The notes below the pieces were generated by a model, which searched no databases, was not told the DNA's origin, and worked only from the letters and a program-made list of their open reading frames with translations. Positions 37,923 to 52,259 of a stretch of 64,000 nucleotides of DNA are shown piece by piece. The DNA comes from Alphaproteobacteria bacterium (GTDB lineage Bacteria > Pseudomonadota > Alphaproteobacteria > Rhizobiales > Xanthobacteraceae). The DNA is taken from contig JBBCGH010000001.1 in NCBI GenBank assembly GCA_037200445.1, forward strand, positions 1,798,001-1,862,000, given 5' to 3'. The first letter of the stretch is position 1. Every line of letters begins with the position of its first letter. The position numbers and the translations under genes were made by a program.

Positions 37923-37937
37923 TCTTCTTCTCGTCAC

Positions 37938-38138
37938 CTCTCCCCGCTTGCGGGGAGAGCATAGGCCGCCTCTGGCGGCCGTTCTTTGAAATGAGGAACG
38001 CCGACGCAAAGCGTCGGCTATGGAGCGGAGCGAGGCGGGTGAGGGGGATTCTCCACGCGCTTGAGACCATCGAGAGTCCCCCTTACCCGGCTCAGACCTG
38101 CGGTCCTCGCCGCCCTCTCCCCGCAAGCGGGGAGAGGG
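37938..38138. repeat. Composite palindromic repeat element
   Basis: Hairpin CTCTCCCCG-CTTG-CGGGGAGAG at 37938-37959 is mirrored by CCCTCTCCCCG-CAAG-CGGGGAGAGGG at 38113-38138. Between them GAGGGGGATTCTC and GAGAGTCCCCCT are also complementary. This makes a 200-base nested inverted structure in the 347-base gap between the ETF-QO and TPR genes. Apparent short frames here come from the repeat, and no gene is supported. Confidence 0.8.
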
Positions 38139-38269
38139 GAAAGCGCCGCTTTTTCGCCGCGGTTACGGCGTATCGCGCTTCCGTTTCGTGAGGGGGCGGC
38201 GTCCTTGCGGCCTGGACTCAAACGCGCCATTGTGCAGGCAAATCGGGCCACCGCTTCGCGGGCCCCGTT

Positions 38270-48382: not shown

Positions 48383-49333
48383 ATGTCTGACCCCGTGCCC
48401 GCTCACATGAGCCCGAAGAACTCGTTCCAGGGGCTGATCCTGACGCTGCAGCGCTACTGGGCGGACCACGGCTGCGTGGTGCTGCAACCCTACGACATGG
48501 AGATGGGGGCGGGCACCTTTCACCCGGCGACGACGTTGCGCGCCCTCGGGCCGAAACCCTGGAACGCCGCCTACGTGCAACCCTCGCGCCGGCCGAAGGA
48601 CGGGCGCTATGGCGAGAACCCGAACCGGCTGCAGCACTATTACCAGTACCAGGTGATCCTGAAGCCCTCGCCGCCGGACCTGCAGGACCTGTATCTCAAA
48701 TCGCTCTACGCAATCGGCATCGACCCGGCGGTGCATGACCTGCGCTTTGTCGAGGACGACTGGGAGAGCCCGACGCTCGGCGCGTGGGGGCTCGGCTGGG
48801 AATGCTGGTGCGACGGCATGGAGGTTTCGCAGTTCACCTACTTCCAGCAGGTCGCGGGCTTCGAGTGCAAGCCGGTCGCGGGCGAGCTCACCTACGGGCT
48901 AGAACGCCTCGCGATGTATGTGCAGGGCGTCGAGAACGTCTATGGCCTCAACTTCAACGGCCGCGAGGGTGCCGACAAGGTCACCTACGGCGACATCTTC
49001 CTGCAGGCCGAGCAGGAATATTCGCGGCACAATTTTGAATACGCCGACACCGAAATGCTGTTCGCGCAGTTCAGACAAGCCGAAGGCGCGTGCCGCAAGT
49101 ATCTCGATGATGGCTGGAAGGCAGGAGAAGCTAAAGGCCACAATTCCAAGCGCCACATGATGGCGCTGCCCGCCTACGACCAGTGCATCAAGGCGAGCCA
49201 CGTGTTCAACCTGCTCGATGCGCGCGGCGTGATCTCGGTCACCGAACGGCAGAGCTATATCCTGCGCGTGCGCGAGCTCGCCAAGGCTTGCGGCGAGGCT
49301 TGGCTCGCGACGGACGGCGGAGGGGTCGGGTGA
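48383..49333 (+). CDS. glyQ: Glycine-tRNA ligase alpha subunit
   Basis: A 316-residue alpha subunit of the bacterial tetrameric (alpha2 beta2) glycyl-tRNA synthetase, containing the catalytic core. Family text is unmistakable: [54 protein letters not shown] and [18 protein letters not shown] 48383 is used; ATG 48407 is possible. It is separated from glyS by 592 bases that hold a broken endonuclease cassette, an unusual interruption because the two subunits must be made in equal amounts. Confidence 0.96.
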
Positions 49334-49356
49334 GCGAGAGGCCTACGCGGTGTGTT

Positions 49357-49393
49357 CCCCTCCCCCTTGTGGGGAGGGGTTTGGGGGTGGGGG
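49357..49393 (+). repeat. Left inverted repeat of the DUF559 cassette
   Basis: A 37-base element beginning CCCCTCCCCCTTGTGGGGAG and ending in G-runs. It is the near-perfect inverse of 49800-49835, differing by one T. It forms its own hairpin around CTTGTG and starts 24 bases after the glyQ stop codon. Confidence 0.85.
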
Positions 49394-49400
49394 TAGCGCG

Positions 49401-49906
49401 ATGGCGCGTCGATCTTCCGAGAAGACGCAAGGCGAGCGAATCTGGGCGCTTCGTGATCGCTCCATCGTTGCGCCCAATCGCAACCGCGCGACCGCGATGC
49501 GCGACCCCAACCGACGCAGAGCGAAAACTTTGGTGGCATTTGCGGCATCGTCTGAAGGCGCCGAACTCGCACTTTCGCCGACAGGTCCGGCTCGGAAGCT
49601 ATTGTTGATTTCGCGAACCACGCAGCTCGCATTGTGATCGAAGTCGATGGCAGCCAACACGCGGCTCGATCGGCAGCTGATTTGGCGCGCACCAAATTTC
49701 TCAACGCCGAGGGCTATCGTGTGTTGCGCTTCTGGAATAACGACGTGCTCGCAAACATCGACGGCGTGCTTGAGGTGATTCACAGCGCCATAACCCCCAC
49801 CCCCACCCCCAACCCCTCCCCACAAGGGGGAGGGGAGTCGACCGAGCTTGTTGCTGCCACCCCGGCGCGCGCTACGCGCCGACCCTCCCCCTCCAGGGGA
49901 GGGTGA
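49401..49906 (+). pseudogene. DUF559 endonuclease-like gene, two frameshifts
   Basis: Three frames together give one DUF559 protein, a very-short-patch/restriction-endonuclease-like fold. Frame 1 starts at ATG 49401 (MARRSSEKTQGERIW). Frame 2 carries PTDAERKLWWHLRHRLKAP and HFRRQVRLGSY. Frame 3 carries VIEVDGSQHAARSAADL, RTKFLNAEGYRVLRFWNNDV and LEVIHSAI. Breaks fall at a C4 run near 49505-49508 and at about 49600. The conserved EVDGSQH and FWN elements are preserved, so decay is recent or the breaks are sequencing errors. The end runs into repeat sequence. Confidence 0.75.
49800..49835 (-). repeat. Right inverted repeat of the DUF559 cassette
   Basis: Thirty-six bases complementary to 49357-49393, preceded by two further ACCCCC units at 49788-49799. 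It is followed by a second small palindrome, ACCCTCCCC-CTCC-GGGGAGGGT-like, at about 49880-49904 just before glyS. Confidence 0.8.
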
Positions 49907-49925
49907 CCGAGCCCGTTGCACCCGC

Positions 49926-52259
49926 ATGCCAGACCTTTTGCTCGAACTGTTCTCCGAGGAAATCCCCGCCCGCATGCAGGGCAAGGCGGCGGATGACCTC
50001 AAGAAGATGGTGACCGACCGGCTGGTCGATGCCGGGCTGGTGTACGAGGGCGCGCGCGCCTTCGTGACGCCGCGGCGCCTGACCCTGTTCGTGCAGGGCG
50101 TGCCCGCGCGCCAGCCGGATCTGAAGGAAGAACGCAAAGGGCCGCGCGTCGGCGCACCGGAAGGCGCAATCGCGGGCTTCCTCAAGGCGGCGGGTCTCTC
50201 CTCGATCAGCGAGGCAACGATCCAGAAGGACCCGAAGAAGGGCGACTTCTACATCGCGCTCACCGAAAAGCCCGGCCGCGCCGCGATCGACGTGATCGGC
50301 GAGATGCTGCAGGTGGTGCTGCGCACCTTGCCGTGGCCGAAGTCGATGCGCTGGGGCGCGCAGTCCGCCAATCCGGGCAGCCTCGAATGGGTGCGGCCCT
50401 TACATTCGATCGTCGCGACGTTCGGGCCGGAGACCGAGGAGCCCGAGATCGTGCGTGTCGCGACCTCCGGTATTCAGGCGGGCAACATCACCCACGGCCA
50501 CCGCTTCATGGCGCCGGGCGCGATCAAGGTGCGCCACTTCGACGACTACGTGACGTCGCTCGAGAAGGCCAAGGTGGTGCTCGATCCGGCGCGGCGCCGC
50601 GAGATCATCCTCAACGACGCGAAGAATCTTGCATTTGCGCAAGGGTTCGAGCTGGTCGAGGACGAGGGCCTGCTCAACGAGGTCGCCGGCCTGGTCGAAT
50701 GGCCGGTCGTGCTGATGGGCACGTTCGAGGAGTCGTTCCTCAGCATTCCGGGCGAGGTGATCCGCGCCACCATCCGCAACAACCAGAAATGCTTCGTGGT
50801 GCGCGATCCCGCGACCGCCAAGCTCGTGAACCGCTTCATCCTCACCGCGAACATCGAGGCTTCCGACGGCGGCGCGGCGATCATCGCCGGCAATGCCCGC
50901 GTGATCCGCGCGCGGCTCTCGGATGCGAAGTTCTTCTACGAGACCGACCTGAAGATCCGGCTGGAAGAACGGCTGCCGAAATTCAAGGACATCGTCTTCC
51001 ACGAGAAGCTGGGCACACAGTACGAGCGCATTGAGCGGATTGCGCGATTGGCCGTCGAGCTTGCGCCGCTCGTCGGCGCCGATCCCGAGAAGGCAAAGAC
51101 CGCGGCGCTCCTCTGCAAAACCGATCTGCTCACCGAGGTTGTCGGCGAATTCCCCGAAGTGCAGGGCACGATGGGGAAATACTATGCGCTGGCGCAGGGC
51201 GAGGACGACGCGGTCGCGCACGCGATCGAGGATCACTATCGGCCGAAGGGGCCGGACGATCTGGTGCCCGCCGACCCGGTGTCGATTGCGGTCGCGCTCG
51301 CGGACAAGATCGATACGCTGGTCGGCTTCTGGGCGATCGACGAGAAGCCGACCGGCAGCAAGGACCCGTACGCGCTGCGTAGGGCGGCGCTGGGTGTGAT
51401 TAGGATTATTCTGGAAAACTCGCTTCGGATTCCGATTCTCAATGCGGTCGCACTATGGATTGCAGCGCGTCGGGACGAAGAGTTCGCCGATGACAGTCAT
51501 TCATCAATTTCAAACCAACAGCTTTATCAGCTAGTGACCGGCGGCAGGGAGAACGGCGAGTTTCCGAAATTTCAACCCATGTTCTTGGTTGCATTTCAGC
51601 AGGAGGCGTTTCGGGTTCTCGATGCCGTGCAAAGCGCGAAGTCGCAAGACCTCCTGCAAATGTTCGTTGGAGGGTGGGAGACGCGTGTAAGCCTACCCGA
51701 CAGTTTCACCAAGCCGGCGCCTATCGCACCAGATCTCTTGTCCTTCTTCCACGACCGCCTCAAGGTCCAGCTCCGCGAGCAGGGTGCACGCCACGATCTG
51801 GTCGATGCGGTTCTCGCGCAGCAAGGCGAGGGGAGCGATGATCTTCTCCTCACCGTCCGCCGCGTTGAAGCGCTCGGAAAGTTTCTTGCGACCGATGACG
51901 GCGCGAGCCTGCTCGCCGGCACCAAGCGCGCCGCCAATATCCTGCGTATCGAGGAGAAGAAGGACGGGCGCGCCTATCACGGCCGGCCCGACCCGCATCT
52001 CTATCTCCAGCCCGAGGAGCGCGAGCTTGCCTCCGCCATCCACAGCGCCAAGGAAGAGGCCGCGAAGGCCGTGGCGCGCGAGGACTTCGAGGGTGCGATG
52101 GCGGTGATCGCGCGGCTGCGCCCGCATGTCGATGCGTTCTTCGAGAAGGTGACGGTGAACGTGCCCGCCGCCGACCGGCGCGAGAACCGGCTCAAGCTGC
52201 TCAACGAAATCCGCGAGGCGACGCGGGCCGTTGCGGACTTCTCGCGAATTGAGGGATGA
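49926..52259 (+). CDS. glyS: Glycine-tRNA ligase beta subunit with a large internal insertion
   Basis: A 777-residue beta subunit that binds tRNA and supports glyQ. It opens with [20 protein letters not shown], then [13 protein letters not shown] and [18 protein letters not shown], and ends in a DALR-type region ([20 protein letters not shown]). Residues about 500-598 (51420-51720) form a segment absent from the usual proteins of this length class, where E. coli-type GlyS has only about 20 linker residues. Its base composition is lower in GC and codon choice differs from the flanks. The frame is unbroken throughout. Confidence 0.93.

Follow-up and report, generated by a model that had tools for sequence, protein, structure and literature searches.

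What brings a DUF559 nuclease gene, framed by inverted repeats, into the gap between glyQ and glyS, and to what class do the repeats belong? The question is raised by one locus in a 64,000-nucleotide stretch of DNA, C1:1798001-1862000 (the window, by which we mean that whole stretch), in a genome of 5.84 Mb whose glyQ-glyS gap measures 592 bp and contains a DUF559 gene between inverted arms. An earlier note on this DNA had taken the two subunit genes to be normally close; indeed, only 3 bp separate them in G002, a genome of the same genus. The features needed for the argument are as follows, with the means of assignment in brackets.

37936..38140, no strand assigned: inverted pair of repeats belonging to the same class, lacking DUF559, with hairpins at 37938-37959 and 38113-38138 (hairpin scan)
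48383..49333, plus strand: glyQ, left flank of the insertion site (Pfam)
49355..49394, plus strand: left triplex arm, consisting of a C-rich tract, the loop CTTGT, a G-rich tract, the spacer TTT and a second G-tract, GGGGGTGGGGG (triplex detector)
49401..49792, plus strand: DUF559 pseudogene, YcjD-like, PD-(D/E)XK, predicted Vsr fold (profiles, and open reading frames by eye)
49793..49837, minus strand: right triplex arm, an inverted copy of the left arm, with its hairpin at 49813-49835 (triplex detector)
49858..49907, minus strand: orphan arm of another type, CACCCC..GCGCCGACCCTCCCCCTCCAGGGGAGGGTGAC (by eye, with a weak 7-nt triplex match)
49926..52259, plus strand: glyS, right flank of the insertion site (Pfam)

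Read from the outside inwards, an arm is made of a C-tract, a loop, a G-tract, a short spacer and a second G-tract, which in the left arm gives CCCCTCCCC-CTTGT-GGGGAGGGG-TTT-GGGGGTGGGGG. Each repeat does start with its own hairpin, as had been noticed: a 23-nt structure, CCCCTCCCC-loop-GGGGAGGGG, opens the arms at 49357-49379 and 49813-49835, and the hairpin pattern CCCTCCCC..GGGGAGGG occurs three times in the window compared to a mean of 0 in 100 shuffles. In inverted orientation, positions 49356-49407 and 49785-49836 are 83% complementary over 52 nt without a gap, and the arm cores, compared by eye, are near-identical, differing by one base and one extra GGGGGT block. The second G-tract of each arm completes, according to the triplex detector, an intrastrand-triplex motif. 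Both arms have the anatomy of the elements known as BoxC, PIT or TM, with 10-nt tracts, one strand mismatch and one triplet mismatch.

The gene between the arms matches PF04480 (DUF559) at 49598-49792 with an E-value of 4e-21 and 77 bits, the curated cut-off being 20.6, and a custom DUF559 profile places the domain at 49477-49792, in two pieces lying in two frames. By eye, the open reading frames show a different frame for each of the N-terminal extension, the N half and the C half, and hence two frameshifts. Arms, PF04480 match and Pfam-assigned flanks thus agree with the earlier description of a DUF559 gene, now broken by two frameshifts, that lies within a matching pair of inverted repeats and separates glyQ from glyS. 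The nuclease of the window is dead and the repeat-bounded shell is all that remains of the element. The orphan arm, which lies between this cassette and glyS, looks by eye like the right-hand arms of DUF559 cassettes that occupy this gap in two other genomes (G029 and G051), and is probably the remnant of an earlier cassette or doublet.

What the intact enzyme might be was judged on a paralogue in the same genome, L012, whose predicted domain model (109 residues, mean pLDDT 88.8) superimposes on 3hrl, the N. gonorrhoeae protein NGO0050, with a Z-score of 14.7, on a domain of the homing endonuclease I-Bth0305I with 11.9, on Vsr (1cw0) with 10.1 and, weakly, on TnsA of Tn7 with 7.1. The DUF559 protein is accordingly modelled as having a Vsr-like nuclease fold. 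The DUF559 profile also detects I-Bth0305I by sequence, as a weak match (E 0.0038). Thirty-two selected open-frame copies share 17 invariant positions, including E16, D46, E57, D59, Q62, H63 and D72, as would be expected for a working nuclease. By 2005, YcjD, the E. coli protein of this family, was classed with the PD-(D/E)XK nucleases (PMC1189080).

Open-frame relatives of the cassette occur in many bacteria (PF04480 was matched by all 14 relatives in one set, A1), and the earlier note had proposed searching genomes for DUF559 genes bounded by repeats of this type. A family sample of 102 DUF559 loci was drawn from 61 genomes, the duplicates L021 and L023 being left out; PF04480 matches are present in 59 of the 61, weak ones included. 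When the two flanks of each locus were compared in inverted orientation, a score of at least 30 was obtained for 95/102 DUF559 loci versus 2/98 displaced flanks, and a score of at least 40 for 86/102 versus 0/98. Left flanks compared with the right flanks of other loci reached 40 in 407 of 2019 pairings. The wider sample comprised 109 loci (the best 80 of at least 581 relatives, plus 29), mostly from Pseudomonadota together with other phyla, many of them in draft or metagenome assemblies, where contigs may have been assigned wrongly. It gave a flank score of at least 36 in 79/109 loci compared to 0/101 controls; the score of L158, counted among the 79, is artefactual, coming from masked N, and this locus was excluded from the triplex counts, which cover 108 of the 109 loci.

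These counts, made with a purpose-written detector, found the triplex motif on the left of 93, on the right of 89 and on both sides of 82 of the 100 family loci, two of the 102 having been dropped for short flanks, and in none of 196 control segments; in the wider sample the figures are 86, 83 and 72 of 108, with 2/207 in controls. By record title, loci with the motif on both sides include ones from Nitrospirales, Kuenenia, Binatia, Dehalococcoidia, Methylomirabilota, Omnitrophota and Desulfobacteraceae. Two Desulfobacterales loci carry it on one side only, and four loci, two of them from Gastranaerophilales, have both arms pointing outwards. The association of the repeats with DUF559 is real, and it is very unlikely that this conclusion is wrong.

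Six of the 108 wider loci show no triplex motif on either side, including that of Legionella shakespearei (L159), where the DUF559 gene stands without triplex arms. In Legionella pneumophila, a DUF559 gene together with a transposase was described in 2025 as a mutation and recombination hotspot (PMC12308824). Low flank scores were obtained for six loci from named records, namely E. coli (20), four near-identical Azospirillum loci (28) and N. gonorrhoeae (36), and repeats of the class can still be made out by hand beside all six. On Azospirillum megaplasmids, each of the seven records spanning the locus carries the element, and there is no empty site among them. In N. gonorrhoeae, triplex-like repeats lie some distance off on both sides of the DUF559 gene (L256), which we take perhaps to be NGO0050, the protein of PDB entry 3hrl.

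Weak PF04480 matches (E about 1e-12 to 1e-20, in frames of about 400 residues or more) were considered as exceptions and set aside. L018, the one inspected, proved to be a methylase fusion: in L018:430-1824 the DUF559 domain forms the C-terminus of a SpoU-family methylase, presumably TrmJ. L018, L019 and L022 have no arms (flank scores of 24 to 26) and were kept out of the counts. Similar weak matches in long frames were seen in many genomes of the family, and the methylase-fused domain is possibly a domesticated copy.

The association is specific. In the same test applied to a sample of 249 genomes of one phylum (Pseudomonadota, by inference), the motif was found on both sides of 14 of 28 DUF559 genes (22 on the left, 19 on the right), of none of 27 Vsr genes and of none of 19 Y1_Tnp genes, one of the last having it on the left and one on the right; the loci long enough to be scored were 28 of 29 for DUF559, 27 of 30 for Vsr and 19 of 30 for Y1_Tnp. 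This bears directly on the proposal that DUF559 is an ordinary Vsr-like repair nuclease near which terminators or housekeeping repeats gather, which we consider very improbable. The predicted fold is indeed Vsr-like, and Caulobacter VsrA, a DUF559 protein, has been connected with a cytosine methyltransferase and, in cells lacking a methyltransferase, with DNA damage (PMC12907096). However, true Vsr genes are without such arms, and a housekeeping gene would not be expected to have matching inverted ends, to occur several times in a genome or to be absent from some of the gaps.

At the level of whole genomes, an excess of at least 10 hairpins was found in 45 of the 60 genomes with a strong DUF559 match, the other 15 having few hairpins, compared to 9 of the 189 others (Fisher p 1.7e-27) and to 7 of the 163 without any DUF559 match. 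None of 5000 shuffles within families reached the observed association, and 13 of the 15 families that hold both kinds of genome go in the expected direction. The excess is present in 21/28 DUF559 genomes that have Y1_Tnp and in 24/32 that have not; among genomes without DUF559, the corresponding figures are 4/116 and 5/73. The presence of Y1_Tnp/RAYT adds nothing to repeat number once DUF559 is known. It could be supposed that the repeats are miniature elements moved by the transposase of an insertion sequence or by a RAYT, with DUF559 merely as cargo caught between two of them: the arms do look like terminal inverted repeats, and gene-less inverted doublets are common. Against this stand the failure of Y1_Tnp, the insertion-sequence family searched for, to predict the repeats given DUF559 and the absence of two-sided arms from the 19 Y1_Tnp loci, so that we regard this possibility as decidedly unlikely.

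The earlier note had also named what would speak against its own reading, namely that the repeat is a common intergenic REP not associated with DUF559. Common the repeat certainly is, the window genome having 103 strict hairpins of the class (0 with a reversed-pattern control), but it is strongly tied to DUF559, both inside single genomes and from one genome to another. The second part of the objection, that relatives would offer no gap without the gene, does not describe what is found, since a gene-free glyQ-glyS gap does occur.

Indeed, the comparison of relatives yields empty and filled sites alike. Among 30 glyS loci of the bacterial family, the glyQ-glyS gap is at most 5 bp in nine (G002 included), holds DUF559 in six and other content in nine, and glyQ is not adjacent to glyS in the remaining six. 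Comparison of coordinates in the 57 genomes with a glyS match puts a DUF559 gene immediately upstream of glyS in at least 10. Eight DUF559 copies from this gap, the frameshifted copy of the window being excluded because it aligns badly, fall in a clade of 19 proteins (support 0.62), the other 11 of which come from other sites, in a tree that, like all our trees of this 105-residue protein, is without strong support. For six of the eight, the closest relative is at another site. That the gap had been entered many times by unrelated copies was dropped as an interpretation because the eight share this clade; with six of them closest to copies elsewhere, DUF559 copies have moved into or out of the gap more than once. 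By eye, the eight copies have two arm types, which match two branches of the clade.

The glyQ-glyS gap is one of many sites, and a larger share of the copies, 14 of the 81 DUF559 loci examined, is in the pheS-pheT gap. For each of these 14, the closest relative also comes from the pheS-pheT gap, and the site requires three changes on the tree versus at least nine with random labels. The pheS-pheT copies look mostly inherited, so that movement may be rare. These 14 cassettes, each from a different genome (L006, L008, L010 and 11 further loci), fall mostly in one clade and their arms differ; both arms of any one locus still match each other.

Repeats without the gene follow a spacing of their own. 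Of the 49 gaps among the first 50 of the 103 hairpins, 10 measure 74-109 bp, where 0.1 would be expected, versus 452 bp for a DUF559 cassette, and these closely spaced pairs are inverted doublets by sequence. Nineteen doublet gaps were compared with two congeners, which at these sites are too diverged for exact junctions; no target-site duplication was seen, either in these comparisons or in the gap of another genus described below, and a change could be gain or loss in both. In three the congener is short (189 versus 3, 161 versus 25 and 158 versus 29 bp), eight have other sequence of 102-157 bp, six align straight through and two have no match on the right side. At L383, L387, L390 and L391, inspection by eye found a different palindrome in the congeners, as if several repeat families used the same gaps. 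At L292, a gap that carries a doublet in congeners measures 1364 bp, the doublet arms being separated by a long insert that may be an insertion sequence.

Turnover at a single site can be followed in one gap of another genus, where 30 loci comprise 13 DUF559 cassettes with two arm types, six loci with three hairpins, two with two, two with one, five with no perfect hairpin and two that were unusable. Three of the five without a perfect hairpin are 11-bp gaps; L299, scored in this class, has an imperfect hairpin.

Such alternation of two cassette types at one site, like the two arm types in the glyQ-glyS gap, would also be compatible with DUF559 being a homing endonuclease that lands in pre-existing triplex repeats, the repeats spreading by other means and the gene being parasitic on them. 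After 3hrl, the closest solved folds are those of I-Bth0305I, itself a homing endonuclease, and Vsr, and a passage on inteins assigns a DUF559 gene to the EDxHD homing family (PMC9403480). We nevertheless think this explanation unlikely, though it deserves serious attention. Genomes with many repeats are rare in the absence of a strong DUF559 match, 9 of 189 as given above, which is unexpected if the repeats spread otherwise, and the type of arm tracks the nuclease within genomes.

The last point comes from 81 loci in 34 genomes, loci with a flank score below 40 or an arm length outside 20-95 having been dropped. Between genomes, arm similarity rises with protein identity (r 0.370), a value reached by none of 2000 shuffles within genomes; removal of pairs at the same chromosomal position leaves r at 0.290, again reached by 0/2000 shuffles. 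With pairs that share flanks removed, a nearest-neighbour test favours the arm of the closest relative over those of the other copies in its genome by 59 to 12. Sharing a genome does not make the arms of two copies more similar (0.325, versus 0.342 for copies from different genomes). The repeat type follows the DUF559 protein. This co-variation is no proof of recognition, because arms and gene are physically linked and the cassette may move as a unit.

These data lead us to read the window element as, probably, the decayed remains of a small selfish element composed of one DUF559/YcjD nuclease gene and two inverted triplex repeats, in which the nuclease moves the repeats. Recognition, cutting and the direction of change at the sites are steps that we infer from sequence comparison. 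The DUF559 nuclease would recognise the triplex or hairpin repeat of its own type and nick or cut there; host repair or replication would then place copies of the repeat-bounded segment in other intergenic gaps or at sites that already carry such a repeat. The same nuclease could mobilise in trans the single repeats and the short inverted doublets with 74-109 bp between their hairpins.

How does this compare with what is known? The arms fit the BoxC/PIT/TM class of intrastrand-triplex repeats, and not the known REPs of RAYT type; classical REPs carry GTAG/CGTC tags (PMC3733652). The "REP-bounded mobile cassette" of the earlier note is therefore to be amended: that the cassette is repeat-bounded, probably selfish and broken is borne out by the association, by the filled and empty sites and by the six of eight copies with closest relatives elsewhere, homing or transposition is a proposal, and the repeat is not a known RAYT-type REP. 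BoxC, PIT elements and TM are names for the same intrastrand-triplex motifs, of which E. coli has 23 (Holder et al. 2015, PMC4666352). Both these and the repeats described above have the same three-tract anatomy with a short spacer, for example TTA or CCG, and both are intergenic and also occur as inverted doublets. Two differences stand out: many arms in our samples have an extra second hairpin between the G-tracts, and, compared with BoxC as presented in the available text of PMC4666352, the arms bound a nuclease gene on both sides. That text reports no mobility genes near the repeats, and triplex formation by an isolated strand is, as far as it goes, published for the E. coli motif only.

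E. coli itself offers a direct comparison, for its ycjD carries a DUF559 annotation. The ycjD-fabI interval of MG1655 contains two repeats, one BoxC-like and the other degenerate; the BoxC-like copy, beside ycjD, holds GGGAGAGGGTTAGGG and GGGTGAGGGG, which are printed 14 and 15 times, respectively, in the available text of PMC4666352. Around K-12 ycjD the repeats are only 3' to the gene, with no arm on the 5' side, and our detector picks up the BoxC copy weakly, only at 7-nt tracts with two mismatches. Of 5426 E. coli genomes, 3362 contain 80% or more of a 2.3-kb ycjD locus. The sapF-fabI site was rejected as a pair with and without the element, since UTI89-type strains lacking ycjD carry another operon there. 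A 2026 paper calls ycjD at this site a hypothetical gene (PMC12817139). E. coli YcjD, by annotation, and N. gonorrhoeae NGO0050 (3hrl), by a profile match with E 1.1e-36, belong to the same DUF559 family as the present protein, and both ycjD and the N. gonorrhoeae DUF559 gene have triplex-like repeats nearby, as in our loci. No link between DUF559 or YcjD and triplex repeats was found in the literature searched, from which subscription papers and bioRxiv were mostly excluded.

That DUF559 genes are framed by this kind of repeat in many other bacteria suggests that DUF559 is the missing partner that spreads the BoxC triplex repeats. We would give about even chances to a more general proposal, namely that DUF559/YcjD and the triplex repeats make up a distinct and widespread class of selfish elements, whose nuclease reads the end of its own type, spreads the cassette and moves the gene-less forms in trans, and that in E. 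coli ycjD is the source of BoxC and the published connection of BoxC with genome instability a by-product of nuclease action. With ycjD in E. coli and 3hrl as a solved relative, there is a named candidate partner, which makes the origin of the repeats testable. If the proposal is true, a large family still named as a domain of unknown function would acquire a biological role.

Compared with the Vsr-like (EDxHD) homing endonucleases such as I-Bth0305I, the DUF559 protein has in common the predicted fold and a weak likeness in sequence; unlike genes of that type, the DUF559 gene described above stands alone in intergenic gaps between triplex arms. There is a parallel in organisation with the RAYT-REPIN systems. 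These comprise single repeats, short inverted doublets and a gene placed between inverted repeats of the type that matches its protein, and the DUF559 system likewise has singles, short inverted doublets, a repeat-bounded gene and a match of repeat type to protein. The likeness is one of outcome: the enzyme is predicted to have a Vsr/EDxHD-like fold, and is not a Y1 HUH transposase, and, unlike in RAYT-REPIN, the abundance of the repeats is independent of Y1_Tnp. If our reading is true, DUF559 would provide a second type of enzyme for the REPIN-like littering of genomes with small palindromes.
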